The translations under genes were made by a program, and so were the position numbers. Shown here piece by piece: positions 49,814 to 54,697 of a stretch of DNA of 56,979 nt. The DNA lies in assembly GCA_937904325.1 (NCBI GenBank), contig CALGTK010000034.1, forward strand, positions 1-56,979, given 5' to 3'. The stretch comes from an uncultured Planctomyces sp. (GTDB taxonomy: Bacteria; Planctomycetota; Planctomycetia; Planctomycetales; Planctomycetaceae). How positions within the stretch are numbered: position 1 is the stretch's first letter; each line of letters begins with the position of its first letter. Under the pieces are notes generated by a model, which ran no database searches, had not been told where the DNA came from, and saw nothing but the letters and a program-made list of their open reading frames with translations.

Positions 49814-52330
49814 ATGGAAGTTACCTGGAAAAACGTCTGGCTGATTCTTCATCGCGAGGTGCGGGATCAATTGCGAGATCGCCGGACGCTGTTCATGGTC
49901 CTCGTACTACCCATCATGCTGTACCCTGGCCTCGGGATTGGCATGCTGCAGATGACGATGTACTTTACAGAGCAGCCTCGACAGGTTGTCATCCTCAACG
50001 CTGGCGAACTGCCCGACCCGCCGCTCGTTAAAGATGGAGTGTTCCCGACTCGCTGGTTCCGGTCCGCAGAAACATCGTCCAAGCTTCGAGTCCTGACTGA
50101 TGCGTCCGACGACGAAGCAAGGCTGCCGAACGTCACCGCCGAAGAGCAAAAACAGTTGCTCGCAGACGCCGCTCGTATTCGAGAACTGATCGAGCAGCGA
50201 AACAAGCTCGTCGCACAGCTTGCTCCCTGGAATTCAGACTTCGCCGACGAACTGTCCGGAGTCCAGTCTGCAAAATTACGAAACGCGATTCAAAGTGGCG
50301 AAACCCCCGAGCAGCCGGATAACTATGAGGCTTTGGTCGACGAATATCTGGAACTAAAAAAAACGATCGGCGAGCAGTTTGCAAACAGCAAGCTGCAAGT
50401 GCTGATGATTGTTCCCGAGGGCTTCGGCAAGAATCTCAAAACGGTCAATGACTTACTCGTCAGCCGCGACAACGACAAGCTGATGACGCTACCGCTGCTA
50501 CGGCCGATCCTCGTCCGCAACCGCGCCGACGAGAAATCAGATGTCGCTTACCGTCGAGTTCGAGAAGCTATCGACAAGTGGGAAAGGCAACTTTTGAAAG
50601 AGCGGCTCGAACTGGCACAGCTTCCCGAAACTGTTCCAGATCCCGTCAGCCTGCTTTCGATTGATGTCGCCAATGAGGACGAAATTGCTGCCAGCATGTG
50701 GGGAAAAATCTTCCCGGCACTGCTGATTATCATGGCTCTGACGGGAGCGTTCTATCCGGCGATCGATGTCGCGGCTGGCGAGAAAGAACGCGGCACGATG
50801 GAAACCCTGCTGATCTGCCCGGCAACACGCTCTGAAATTGTGGTCGGAAAATTTCTGACTGTCCTGCTGTTCAGCATGGCGACGACAATGCTCAACCTGA
50901 TCAGTATGGGCTTTACCGGTAAGTACATCGTTTCCATGACCGCCGGTGTCTCCGGATCCGGAATGGGAGCCGTTCCGCTGCCGACGCCACTGGCTCTGTT
51001 CTGGCTGGTGATCCTGCTAATTCCGTTGGCCGCATTCTTCAGCGCATTATGCCTGTCACTGGCTACGTTTGCTCGTAGCAACAAAGAAGGGCAGTACTAC
51101 CTGACGCCGCTCTTCATGATCACGATGGGCATGACGATGTTCTCGATGTCGCCATCGATCGAGCTGACAGCCACCGGCGGTGCATCGTTGTTCTATTGTG
51201 CGATGCCGATCGTTGGCCCGGCGTTGTTGCTTAAAGCGTTGCTCATGAATCCGGGTAATACCGAAGTACTTGTATTCGCGCTGCCGGTTCTGATGTCGAG
51301 CATTGGATACAGCGCGATCGCATTGTGGTGGGCCGTTGAACAATTCAAGAGCGAAGACGTTCTGTTCCGCGAAGCCGAGCAGTTCGATCTGAAGCTCTGG
51401 TTGCGACAACTACTTCGTGACAAAGCTCCACTGCCTACATTCGCTCAGGCTGCTATCTGCTTCATGCTGATGATGTTTCTGCAGTTCCTGACGATCAAGC
51501 TCTTAACCGGATCAATGGTCGGAGTCGCAGCGGAAGACATCGGCCGAAAAATGATGGAACTGGCAGTCGTTCAACAAATGGCTCTGATCGCTGCACCCGC
51601 GATCTTAATGGCAATTCTACTGACATCGAGCGTTCGCAAGACCCTACGACTGAAAATGCCGAGTGGCCGGATGCTGGCCGTAGCGATAGCGCTGCCTTTC
51701 GTGCTTCACCCATTAGCAATCGAGCTGCTGGCCAGCCTGCAGAGTTTCTTCCCGCAACTACCAGACAGTGCAAAGGCGGCGTTCGCAGCAATGTCAGATG
51801 AAACGCTGCCGCTTTATGTGGTCATCGGAGTTTTCGCATTAACGCCCGCCTTGTGCGAGGAAGTCGCCTTCCGAGGATTCATTCTGTCCGGCTTCGGAAG
51901 CGGTGGCCGCACGGGCATCGCGATCATTCTATCGAGTATCACGTTCGGCTTGATCCACATGGTCCCTCAGCAGGTCTTCAATGCATCGCTGCTGGGCATG
52001 GTCCTGGGACTGATAGCCGTTCGAAGCAACAGCCTGCTACCAGGCGTCGCCTTCCACTTGTGCTTCAACAGCCTCGCCGTCTTTCACGGTCAGGTAAGCG
52101 CCAGCTTCTCTGAATCAAAGCCCGATTGGCTCGATAAAGACCTTATCTCATGGTTCGTGTCCTGCCCGAACGACACACTGCGGTACAACTTCCTGACGTT
52201 GATGACCTGCGCCGGAGCCACGTTCCTGATGATCCGTTGGTTGATCAATGAGGGAGAATCCCGCGAGGATCCAAACGCCATCCCACGAATTCAGCCCGAA
52301 GCCGTCACTCTGACCGGCTCCGCGACGTAA
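49814..52330 (+). CDS. ABC-2 permease fused to CPBP (CAAX-like) intramembrane protease
   Basis: 838-residue inner-membrane protein. The N-terminal half is an ABC-2/NatB-type permease: a first helix at about 29-50, a large extracytoplasmic segment at about 60-290, then a cluster of helices (PALLIIMALTGAFYPAIDVA and an EKERGTMETLLICP block). The C-terminal part (about 620-800) is a CPBP family intramembrane protease with EEVAFRG (E682, E683, R687), H715 in FGLIHMV and a later FHLCFN His, so catalytic residues are present. GGAG lies 10-13 bases before the ATG. The preceding gene encodes its ATPase. Such fusions are known in Planctomycetes; whether the protease acts on the transported substrate is not known. 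Confidence 0.92.
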   Translation: MEVTWKNVWLILHREVRDQLRDRRTLFMVLVLPIMLYPGLGIGMLQMTMYFTEQPRQVVILNAGELPDPPLVKDGVFPTRWFRSAETSSKLRVLTDASDDEARLPNVTAEEQKQLLADAARIRELIEQRNKLVAQLAPWNSDFADELSGVQSAKLRNAIQSGETPEQPDNYEALVDEYLELKKTIGEQFANSKLQVLMIVPEGFGKNLKTVNDLLVSRDNDKLMTLPLLRPILVRNRADEKSDVAYRRVREAIDKWERQLLKERLELAQLPETVPDPVSLLSIDVANEDEIAASMWGKIFPALLIIMALTGAFYPAIDVAAGEKERGTMETLLICPATRSEIVVGKFLTVLLFSMATTMLNLISMGFTGKYIVSMTAGVSGSGMGAVPLPTPLALFWLVILLIPLAAFFSALCLSLATFARSNKEGQYYLTPLFMITMGMTMFSMSPSIELTATGGASLFYCAMPIVGPALLLKALLMNPGNTEVLVFALPVLMSSIGYSAIALWWAVEQFKSEDVLFREAEQFDLKLWLRQLLRDKAPLPTFAQAAICFMLMMFLQFLTIKLLTGSMVGVAAEDIGRKMMELAVVQQMALIAAPAILMAILLTSSVRKTLRLKMPSGRMLAVAIALPFVLHPLAIELLASLQSFFPQLPDSAKAAFAAMSDETLPLYVVIGVFALTPALCEEVAFRGFILSGFGSGGRTGIAIILSSITFGLIHMVPQQVFNASLLGMVLGLIAVRSNSLLPGVAFHLCFNSLAVFHGQVSASFSESKPDWLDKDLISWFVSCPNDTLRYNFLTLMTCAGATFLMIRWLINEGESREDPNAIPRIQPEAVTLTGSAT

Positions 52331-52465
52331 TCGTCCAGACGTACAGCCAGCCAGTCAAAATCAATGGCGCGCCTGTCGCACTTCGACCATTGAGTAATCT
52401 CGCCGCCTTGTTCCGCTGGGACAGATTGCTAGCATCCTCGCAACCTACCCAAAGTGGAGATGCAC

Positions 52466-53656
52466 ATGGCCGACGATCGAGCTCAGTTGAATATCCGCGT
52501 GCCACAGTCGATCCACAGTTGGGTCCAGCGAGCGTCGAAACGTAAGGGGTTGTCACAGAAAGCATTCATCGTCTCTCTGATTGAAGAGGCGATGGATCGA
52601 TCGAAAGGCCCTTCACTGTTCGACAAGCCGGAAGAGCCTCCGGCCGCCTCACAGTTCAATGGCACAATGCCGTTTCGATTTATCGATCTGTTTGCCGGAA
52701 TCGGCGGTCTGCGAATCGGTCTGCAAAGAGCAGGAGGGCATTGCGTATTCTCGAGCGAGATCGATCCGTACGCTCAAAAGACCTACCGGGCATGGTTTGG
52801 CGAAGAACCTGCCGGTGACATTCAGGATTTTGTTTCCGGTGAAGGCATTCCTGAACATCATCTGTTGTCTGCAGGTTTTCCATGTCAGCCGTTTTCGATT
52901 GCCGGAGTCTCCAAGAAGAAAAGCCTGGGGCGGGACCACGGATTCAAAGACAAAGCTCAAGGGACGTTGTTCTTCCAATTGGCTGAAATCATCGACAGCA
53001 AACAGCCGGAAGTCCTGCTTCTGGAAAACGTCAAGAATTTGCGATCACATAACAAAGGCGACACCTGGCGAACAATTCGTGGGCGTCTGACTGATCTCGG
53101 CTACGCGATCTTCGATCAAACAATCGACGCCGCCAACTACGTCCCTCAGCATCGCGAACGCATCTTTATTGTTGGATTCCGCCGCGACGTCTACGGCGAC
53201 AATCCGCCGTTCGAGTTTCCAGATGTCCCGGAGGGGCCGCGGCCAAAATTTCGAGACATTCTTGAACCGACGAAGAACGTTCCGGCAAAGTACACGCTCA
53301 GCGACAAGCTGTGGAACTACCTGCAGGAATACAAGAAGAAGCACGCCGCCAAAGGAAATGGATTCGGGTTCGGCATGACCGACCTCGACGGAATCAGCCG
53401 AACACTCAGCGCTCGCTACTACAAAGACGGAGCTGAAATTCTGATTCCGCAAAGAAGACGAGGCCCACGACGCCTGATGCCCTTAGAAGCCGCACGGCTG
53501 ATGGGCTTCCCGCCGGAGTACGTTGACAACCAGGTCGTCTCAGACACACGTGCCTACAAGCAGTATGGCAATGCAGTAGTCCCGCTAGTCGCTGAGGCGG
53601 TTGCAAAGCAAATCGTCAAAGTCATGAAATGGCAGCGGGTAAACTCACCAGACTGA
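52466..53656 (+). CDS. DNA (cytosine-5) methyltransferase, Dcm-like, with N-terminal RHH segment
   Basis: 396-residue C5-methyltransferase with the family motifs in order: motif I FIDLFAGIGG (72-81), the catalytic PCQ (C140 in AGFPCQPFSIAG), the ENV motif LLLENVKNL, and a late GNAVVP motif. The target-recognition part (GNGFGFGM and TLSARYYKDGAEIL segments) resembles E. coli Dcm, so CCWGG is the predicted site (inference). The first 45 residues (LNIRVPQSIHSWVQRASKRK, then a SQKAFIVSLIEEAMDR helix) look like a ribbon-helix-helix DNA-binding segment, absent from ordinary Dcm. The frame opens at GTG 52454; ATG 52466 has GGAG at the right distance. No restriction endonuclease gene is adjacent. Confidence 0.93.
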   Translation: MADDRAQLNIRVPQSIHSWVQRASKRKGLSQKAFIVSLIEEAMDRSKGPSLFDKPEEPPAASQFNGTMPFRFIDLFAGIGGLRIGLQRAGGHCVFSSEIDPYAQKTYRAWFGEEPAGDIQDFVSGEGIPEHHLLSAGFPCQPFSIAGVSKKKSLGRDHGFKDKAQGTLFFQLAEIIDSKQPEVLLLENVKNLRSHNKGDTWRTIRGRLTDLGYAIFDQTIDAANYVPQHRERIFIVGFRRDVYGDNPPFEFPDVPEGPRPKFRDILEPTKNVPAKYTLSDKLWNYLQEYKKKHAAKGNGFGFGMTDLDGISRTLSARYYKDGAEILIPQRRRGPRRLMPLEAARLMGFPPEYVDNQVVSDTRAYKQYGNAVVPLVAEAVAKQIVKVMKWQRVNSPD

Positions 53657-53672: not shown

Positions 53673-54488
53673 TTATTCTTCAATTTCTGGTCGACGCGAG
53701 CGACCGCTGTCTAATTCGTTTCCGTCTGCTCCGCCGGAACCAAAGCCGCCGGAACCAAAGCCGCCGGAACCAAAGCCGCCTGATTCGAAACCGCCGCCTC
53801 GTCGGCCCAAACCGTCGGGATCGAATTCTTCAGGCGTAAGTTCTCCGTCACCGTTGCTGTCGAGAGATTCCAGTACGGCGACCGCACCTTCGATTTCTTC
53901 CGCTGAAATTTCTCCATCGCTGTCAGCGTCGAGACTTGAAAACAACAGATCCGGTGGTGGTTGAAATTCTCCGCCGCTGGACCAATTCCCGTCTTCACCC
54001 GAAAGTCCGCCTCCGGAATAGCCTCCATCTGAGTAGTCTTCCAATTCAGGCATCTCATCCTCGGATGGGACATACCTGGTCAGAGCCAAACCAGACTCTG
54101 GAGCCGCTGACGTCGCGAAGCTGATCACCTCGGAACTGTCTTTCGACACCCTCAATGTGATCTCGTACTCGCCCGACTTAAACAGGCTGAACCATGAAAA
54201 CTGGTAGTAGTCCATGAGCCCACTGGCATCTGCATCTTTAACTTCCACTGGTGAGAGCGTCATCAACTTTCGAGCATCGGCGAGATCAATCTGCACTTCC
54301 TCAGTATCAGCAAACGCCGCTTGCACCGCGTCCAGCGAATTTGCATAGCCTTGCTGCGCCCGAGCTTCGATCCCCACGGTAACAAGCAACGCGCCAATCA
54401 AGCCCCAGACGATTACCCGTTCCACAGGATTCCTCGACGGCTTGTCCGCTGGTTCGATAGCCTTTGATTCTGTTGAATCTGCCGGCAT
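53673..54488 (-). CDS. EF-hand membrane-anchored protein with Gly-Ser tail
   Basis: 271 residues with one membrane helix (about 24-42, VIVWGLIGALLVTVGIE), an extracytoplasmic domain of unknown fold at about 45-140, and an acidic Gly-rich linker. Two EF-hand loops follow at about 185-196 (DADSDGEISAEE) and 207-218 (DSNGDGELTPEE), both with good calcium ligands. The tail is three perfect and one degenerate GFGSGG-type units coded by a 15-bp tandem repeat. The frame starts at 54512, but the ATG at 54488 (MPADSTESK) has a GGAAAGG ribosome-binding site. It converges with the methyltransferase gene, 16 bp apart. Calcium binding is well supported; the role is unknown. Confidence 0.8.
   Translation of the reverse strand: MPADSTESKAIEPADKPSRNPVERVIVWGLIGALLVTVGIEARAQQGYANSLDAVQAAFADTEEVQIDLADARKLMTLSPVEVKDADASGLMDYYQFSWFSLFKSGEYEITLRVSKDSSEVISFATSAAPESGLALTRYVPSEDEMPELEDYSDGGYSGGGLSGEDGNWSSGGEFQPPPDLLFSSLDADSDGEISAEEIEGAVAVLESLDSNGDGELTPEEFDPDGLGRRGGGFESGGFGSGGFGSGGFGSGGADGNELDSGRSRRPEIEE
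53731..53775. repeat. 15-bp tandem repeat inside EF-hand gene
   Basis: Three perfect units of CCGCCGGAACCAAAG followed by a degenerate fourth at 53776-53790. In frame, so copy-number changes would only lengthen or shorten the Gly-Ser tail. Confidence 0.9.
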
Positions 54489-54697
54489 AACATCTGCCTT
54501 TCCGAAATTCACGATGCAACTTCACAAACGCAGCAGTGATACTGCTGCTACTGGACAGCAGTTTTATCCGGAATAACTGAGACAAGCCAGAAGCTGGCCG
54601 ATTCTGTGGATCGGAGGCCGTTTCGTCACAGCAGGATTCAATCAATCCTGAGACTTTGCTCATTGCCAGGAAGTGCTGCTGCATCGAGTGACACAAC

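Follow-up and report, generated by a model that had tools for sequence, protein, structure and literature searches.

One known form of autorepression in C5-methyltransferases uses an N-terminal helix-turn-helix (HTH) domain at an operator that overlaps the promoter (PMC3874152, PMC3978073), and for M.EcoRII the repression takes place only when its sites are methylated (PMC12707154). In a 2013 review the restriction-modification and toxin-antitoxin systems were described as alike in behaviour, with no homology detected between them (PMC3874152). In Caulobacter the solitary methyltransferase ScmA is accompanied by an unlinked mismatch endonuclease, VsrA, which makes loss of the methylase costly; when Vsr was absent, ScmA methylation left expression unchanged (PMC12907096).

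The window considered here, i.e., the whole analysed stretch of 56,979 nucleotides from an uncultured Planctomyces sp., encodes a C5-methyltransferase that starts with a ribbon-helix-helix (RHH) domain. Taken as a whole, it is considered likely that this FitA/Arc-like RHH makes the enzyme its own transcriptional repressor, and that the gene originated in an EcoRII-type operon and has been kept together with Vsr.

The methyltransferase core and its N-terminal domain

The gene occupies positions 52466..53656 of the forward strand, to which its promoter elements and domains are also assigned, and encodes 396 amino acids from an ATG start. A putative Shine-Dalgarno sequence GGAG (52456..52459) lies 6 nt before the ATG at 52466, and an alternative in-frame ATG at 52460 would abut it. 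The catalytic domain (residues 70–385; 52673..53620) matches PF00145 over this range with E 1.3e-77 and contains the PCQ motif with C140, ENV at 187–189, and QHRER at 228–232, all conserved; no other PF00145 protein is encoded in this planctomycete genome of 7.97 Mb. The closest solved structure is Shigella Dcm (3lx6, also 3me5; E 3e-84), and the alignment with it runs through the target-recognition stretch KGNGFGFG...ARYYKDGAEILI (residues 296–327; 53351..53446). With the PF00145 core, the three motifs, and Dcm-type target recognition the protein is assigned, on sequence grounds, to the Dcm/EcoRII subfamily of C5-methyltransferases, in agreement with the preliminary description of the locus, where the core was called Dcm-like including its target-recognition stretch; its expected specificity would be CCWGG. 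The dN/dS of the catalytic part against near kin is 0.03–0.05. In a comparison of three methyltransferase-bearing with three methyltransferase-less genomes the CCWGG composition gave no consistent signal and no clear methylation footprint.

The best PADLOC match of the protein was DrmMII (E 5e-129), which would make it the methyltransferase of a DISARM defence system. This assignment is extremely improbable: no helicase/DrmA, DrmB, or DrmC gene is adjacent, the neighbours encode an MqnC-type radical SAM enzyme, ABC/CAAX proteins, an EF-hand protein, and an aldo-keto reductase, and the DrmMII match reflects general Dcm-type similarity.

Ahead of the core, residues 7–45 (52484..52600) comprise a strand QLNIRV and helices 14–27 and 31–45, followed by a linker (residues 46–67; 52601..52666) that is poorly conserved except for a G-P-x-LF motif common to relatives. 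Window residues 1–58 alone match RHH proteins weakly, with E 0.13 for Arc over 40 ungapped residues and, as the best Pfam-type score of the N-terminus, E 0.009 for TacA1, which is under every Pfam cut-off. The profile obtained from the aligned N-termini of nine relatives found antitoxin 7e4j (E 0.002) and Arc (E 0.005) as its best PDB matches; the Pfam family FitA-like_RHH was matched by 5 of the 9 N-termini with the best E of 1.6e-8, and one relative (L004) exceeds the cut-off of this family (34.6 versus 27 bits). In AF2 monomer models, built for the full protein as well as for residues 1–55, the two helices follow an extended stretch with pLDDT mostly >80. Foldseek of the RHH model ranked Arc first and placed CopG, MatP, TacA1, AmrZ, and further RHH proteins among the top matches with target TM-scores up to 0.87, the E-values being >0.05 because the domain is tiny. 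Judged by these profiles and models, residues 7–45 are an RHH. The preliminary description had suggested an RHH of about 45 residues ahead of the core, and structure prediction of the N-terminus bore this out, returning the RHH and not an unrelated fold.

Arc reads bases with Gln, Asn, and Arg of its N-terminal strand. The window strand QLNIRVP aligns with QFNLRWP of Arc, and its Q-N-R spacing is the same as in the base-reading strand of Arc. Compared with near kin the RHH has a dN/dS of 0.03–0.12, and the domain is therefore under purifying selection; it would be expected to dimerise the enzyme and to bind DNA.

The promoter palindrome and its distribution among relatives

The region upstream of the gene contains a -35-like hexamer TTGTTC (52408..52413) placed 16 nt before TAGCAT and an extended -10-like element TGC-TAGCAT (TGCTAGCAT; 52427..52435). 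At the -35 position most RHH relatives have TTGNNN, and two of them (L060 and L121) have TTGACA at spacing 18; a sigma70 consensus scan at default stringency returned no promoter in the upstream region of the window gene. The -10-like element is situated inside a palindrome, CTGGGACAGATTGC-TAGCATCCTC-GCAACCTACCCA (52416..52451), which is the candidate operator and overlaps the promoter; this designation is based on sequence conservation and on the co-loss described below. Its left half corresponds exactly to CTGGGA-N5-TGMTAKCAT, and its right half is an imperfect inverted copy with 6 of 8 inner pairs. In three near-kin genes (L032–L034) all 8 inner pairs are formed and the inverted arms around the -10 element read CAGGTTGC-N10-GCAACCTG, the window carrying two substitutions; the distance between the arms varies among relatives from about 12 to 16 nt. 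The 52-nt block 52408–52459 differs between the window and L032–L034 at about 2–5 positions, while the remaining intergenic region has diverged and the synonymous divergence in the catalytic part reaches dS of about 0.6–1.4. Across the 7.97-Mb genome an exact match to the element is found at a single place, 52416–52451, which therefore appears to be a dedicated self-control site. Control by promoter methylation of the CfrBI/AhdI-like type was considered separately and rejected as unlikely, since the promoter of the window gene contains no CCWGG.

The same layout, CTGGGA-N5-TGMTAKCAT and then an inverted right half that in the best copies ends with TCCCAG, is present upstream of the other RHH-methyltransferase genes, including genes of viral contigs and of other families of the phylum whose products are 53–58% identical to that of the window; perfect arms of 12–14 bp are found in L007/L059, L008/L060, L095, and L117. 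When up to 3 mismatches were permitted, the element was detected in 19/19 RHH genes (11 with none) versus 4/105 others, and the reversed pattern used as control matched in no gene of these sets. Because the RHH genes used for the count had in part also served to define the motif, the value of 19/19 is partly circular, and the stronger evidence comes from the co-loss inside the clade. A scan of viral contigs with the left half-motif matched about 40 loci, among which only the three that had the right half too were RHH-methyltransferases; in a large database, a match to the left half-motif by itself therefore does not identify such a gene.

A tree built from 121 catalytic domains groups every one of the 19 FitA-type RHH proteins in one 36-member clade (SH-aLRT 100), whose remaining members are 7 with a degenerate RHH and 10 without one; this composition fits a single gain of the RHH and several losses. 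Within the clade the element accompanies 19 of the 19 RHH-bearing genes versus none of the 17 in which the RHH was lost or degraded, and all 7 supported independent pairs agree on the co-occurrence of RHH and element (p = 0.016). RHH-less genes with 71–75% identity to the window gene are without the element, while RHH genes with 54% identity possess it. In seven solitary methyltransferases of genus g11 and its neighbour (L201–L207) the RHH is degenerate, with the helices recognisable and both the base-reading strand and the operator gone.

RHH folds also serve as dimerisation modules, and an extended -10 promoter accounts for part of the element, so it may be argued that the palindrome serves a different host regulator as operator, or forms a promoter or mRNA structure, and that the RHH only dimerises the enzyme or helps to hold DNA during methylation. 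However, the element has been lost exactly where the RHH was lost or degraded, it is present once in the window genome, and it stays with the gene in viral contigs as well as in other families of the phylum, where a shared host regulator is not expected; this explanation is thus unlikely.

A second type of RHH, the CopG/NikA-like head, was found on Dcm/EcoRII methyltransferases of a viral contig (L126; 719–1864) and of a Levilactobacillus brevis plasmid (L339; 1351–2511, WP_139566225.1), each of which adjoins an EcoRII-like nuclease. These CopG/NikA-like RHH methyltransferases of Firmicutes resemble the window protein in the RHH-like N-terminus and the Dcm/EcoRII core but differ in the RHH family. 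In the tree L126 is placed apart from the 36-member clade, which suggests that its head is probably a second, independent RHH capture. Upstream of L126 the palindrome TTGTATA...TATACAA surrounds TATAAT, and outer GGGA...TCCC boxes are also present. Such boxes, equally spaced, occupy the same promoter position in some HTH-type relatives, with both halves in L131, L148, and L190 and the left one in L149, L171, and L172, and upstream of M.EcoRII (L338) the outer box has the form TGGGT...ACCCA. The inner half-sites differ with the head, being TGATATCA-like with the FitA-type RHH, TGTCA-like with some HTH types, and TTGTATA...TATACAA with the CopG-type head of L126, while the outer CTGGGA/TCCCAG boxes are one base off CCWGG on both sides. 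From these few cases it might be proposed, though rather doubtfully, that the operator is modular and two-layered, with inner half-sites that follow the N-terminal head and outer boxes that are read by the catalytic domain. If true, the promoter would be a built-in sensor of the remaining methylatable sites, on which antitoxin or phage-type repressor heads could be swapped.

Kinship with EcoRII-type operons and the presence of Vsr

In other genera and families (L055, L056, L057, and L060) the RHH-methyltransferase gene is directly followed by an EcoRII-like nuclease gene and then by a Vsr sequence. The nuclease matches PF09019 in all of these loci and additionally PF09217 in three; Vsr was recognised by PF03852 in L055 and L056 and by profile matches in L057 (six-frame) and L060. 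The same order of RHH-methyltransferase, EcoRII, and Vsr was observed in viral contigs L117, L119, and L123. In near-kin genomes (L032–L035) EcoRII is absent and one unlinked Vsr is present in each, and no EcoRII-C protein was detected in the window genome by the search that finds one in each of G315, G233, G169, and G358. As judged from these sequences, the window gene is a solitary derivative of an EcoRII-type operon from which the EcoRII gene has gone; for EcoRII presence versus RHH presence there is 1 supported independent pair.

The methyltransferase gene is immediately flanked by genes for an ABC/CAAX-protease protein and an EF-hand protein, so that the absence of an adjacent endonuclease, noted previously, holds, and the neighbours are the same as in L032 and L033. 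At 49814–52330, immediately following an ABC ATPase gene, the window encodes an ABC-2 permease joined to a CAAX (Rce1-like) protease domain, and the EF-hand gene on the reverse strand (53673–54512) includes a 15-bp tandem repeat CCGCCGGAACCAAAG at 53731–53796.

The only Vsr gene over the cut-off in the window genome (L069; G000 contig 60, 1867–2271; E 5e-30) is unlinked to the methyltransferase and, with flanks named by eye, is located between histidinol-phosphate-aminotransferase-like and isochorismatase-like genes. Among 170 genomes of the family Vsr was present in 43/45 genomes with such a methyltransferase versus 29/125 without, as raw counts with kinship ignored, and this points to a maintained m5C/Vsr pair, not to gene regulation. 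By analogy, the regular occurrence of Vsr suggests a pair comparable to ScmA/VsrA of Caulobacter, and coupling of the solitary methyltransferase to Vsr would be the better guess. The observed/expected ratio of CTWGG+CCWAG was 0.75–0.77 in three methyltransferase-bearing genomes versus 0.85–0.94 in three without, with differing base compositions; the lower values are in the direction expected of Vsr, but three genomes a side do not constitute evidence.

In the preliminary description the lack of an adjacent endonuclease was taken to mean that the role may be epigenetic. Regulation of host genes by a solitary methyltransferase would agree with a single C5-methyltransferase kept vertically in the genus with the same neighbours and with the low dN/dS of its catalytic part; no target genes are indicated, however, the kin are restriction operons, and coupling to Vsr explains the selection equally well, as in Caulobacter (PMC12907096). 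Since the RHH-methyltransferases belong to EcoRII-type operons and the window gene is derived from them, the epigenetic role is not supported and is regarded as quite unlikely. The other part of the same interpretation, the RHH standing where the autorepressor HTH sits, is supported, and this RHH travels with the promoter palindrome.

The loss of EcoRII, together with the loss of RHH and operator in several sister lineages, could also mean that the gene is a remnant of the lost EcoRII system with no present function and is drifting towards loss. This is very unlikely in view of the intact catalytic motifs, the purifying selection on both core and RHH, the conserved promoter block, and the retention of Vsr in nearly all genomes with such a methyltransferase.

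Proposed self-control and comparison with known systems

The palindrome overlaps the promoter of an RHH-headed methyltransferase, and the enzyme therefore probably lowers the expression of its own gene. In the proposed mechanism two methyltransferase subunits would pair their RHH strands, and the paired RHHs would bind the palindrome, covering the -10 element and the transcription start. Unmethylated sites would titrate the enzyme, and the promoter would be shut once enough enzyme is free, i.e., when the genomic CCWGG sites are methylated. The RHH fusion may have arisen in, or been mostly kept by, EcoRII-type operons, in which the amounts of methyltransferase, EcoRII, and Vsr would be fixed by a single promoter. 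In the genus of the window the nuclease would then have been lost and the self-controlled methyltransferase kept, probably as an enzyme that works with, and is made necessary by, the Vsr mismatch endonuclease encoded elsewhere.

The locus shows that the regulatory head of a restriction-modification methyltransferase has been exchanged in nature, antitoxin-type RHH for HTH, with a promoter element that is gained and lost together with the head. Against the picture given in the 2013 review (PMC3874152), a modification enzyme here has a FitA-antitoxin-type domain. The solitary descendants, some with and some without the operator and almost all with Vsr, make it testable why self-control outlives the nuclease and why Vsr and solitary Dcm enzymes remain together. 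No description of an RHH-headed methyltransferase was found in open-licence papers, which is weak evidence of novelty.

Many Dcm/EcoRII-subfamily methyltransferases examined have an HTH ahead of the core, and the two that were checked with Pfam are HTH_31 and HTH_3. Among the other members examined that extend at the N-terminus, most bear an HTH-like domain at this position. By analogy with autorepression of C5-methyltransferases through an N-terminal HTH, which is the known kind, the best-supported reading is that an RHH occupies that place here and would act as autorepressor, and this is what is new. M.EcoRII of IncN plasmids is of the same catalytic subfamily, and the kin of the window gene adjoin EcoRII-type nucleases; it likewise carries an additional domain at the N-terminus and is a repressor of its own gene (PMC12707154, PMC3978073), as the window enzyme is proposed to be, but that domain is DNA_meth_N (PF18284) and not an RHH. 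The R and M genes of EcoRII face each other, whereas M, R, and Vsr are co-directional in the window kin and R is missing in the window.

M.SsoII/M.Ecl18kI share the arrangement of an N-terminal DNA-binding domain (residues 1–55), a flexible linker, and a catalytic core, and they repress themselves through an operator that overlaps the promoter (PMC3978073, PMC3874152), as the candidate operator of the window does; the difference is a 434-repressor-type HTH in place of the RHH and an additional influence on the divergent R gene. FitA-like, Arc, and CopG repressors have the same fold and the N-terminal strand LxIRxVP and repress their own operons, but they are free proteins or antitoxins, while in the window the RHH is fused to a methyltransferase. 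The Dcm-Vsr pair of E. coli is similar in the solitary Dcm-type methyltransferase with Vsr in the genome, and differs from the window genome, where Vsr is unlinked. Caulobacter ScmA/VsrA combines a solitary C5-methyltransferase with an unlinked Vsr that is proposed to keep the methyltransferase in the genome, although the target motif of ScmA is YGCCGGCR (PMC12907096).
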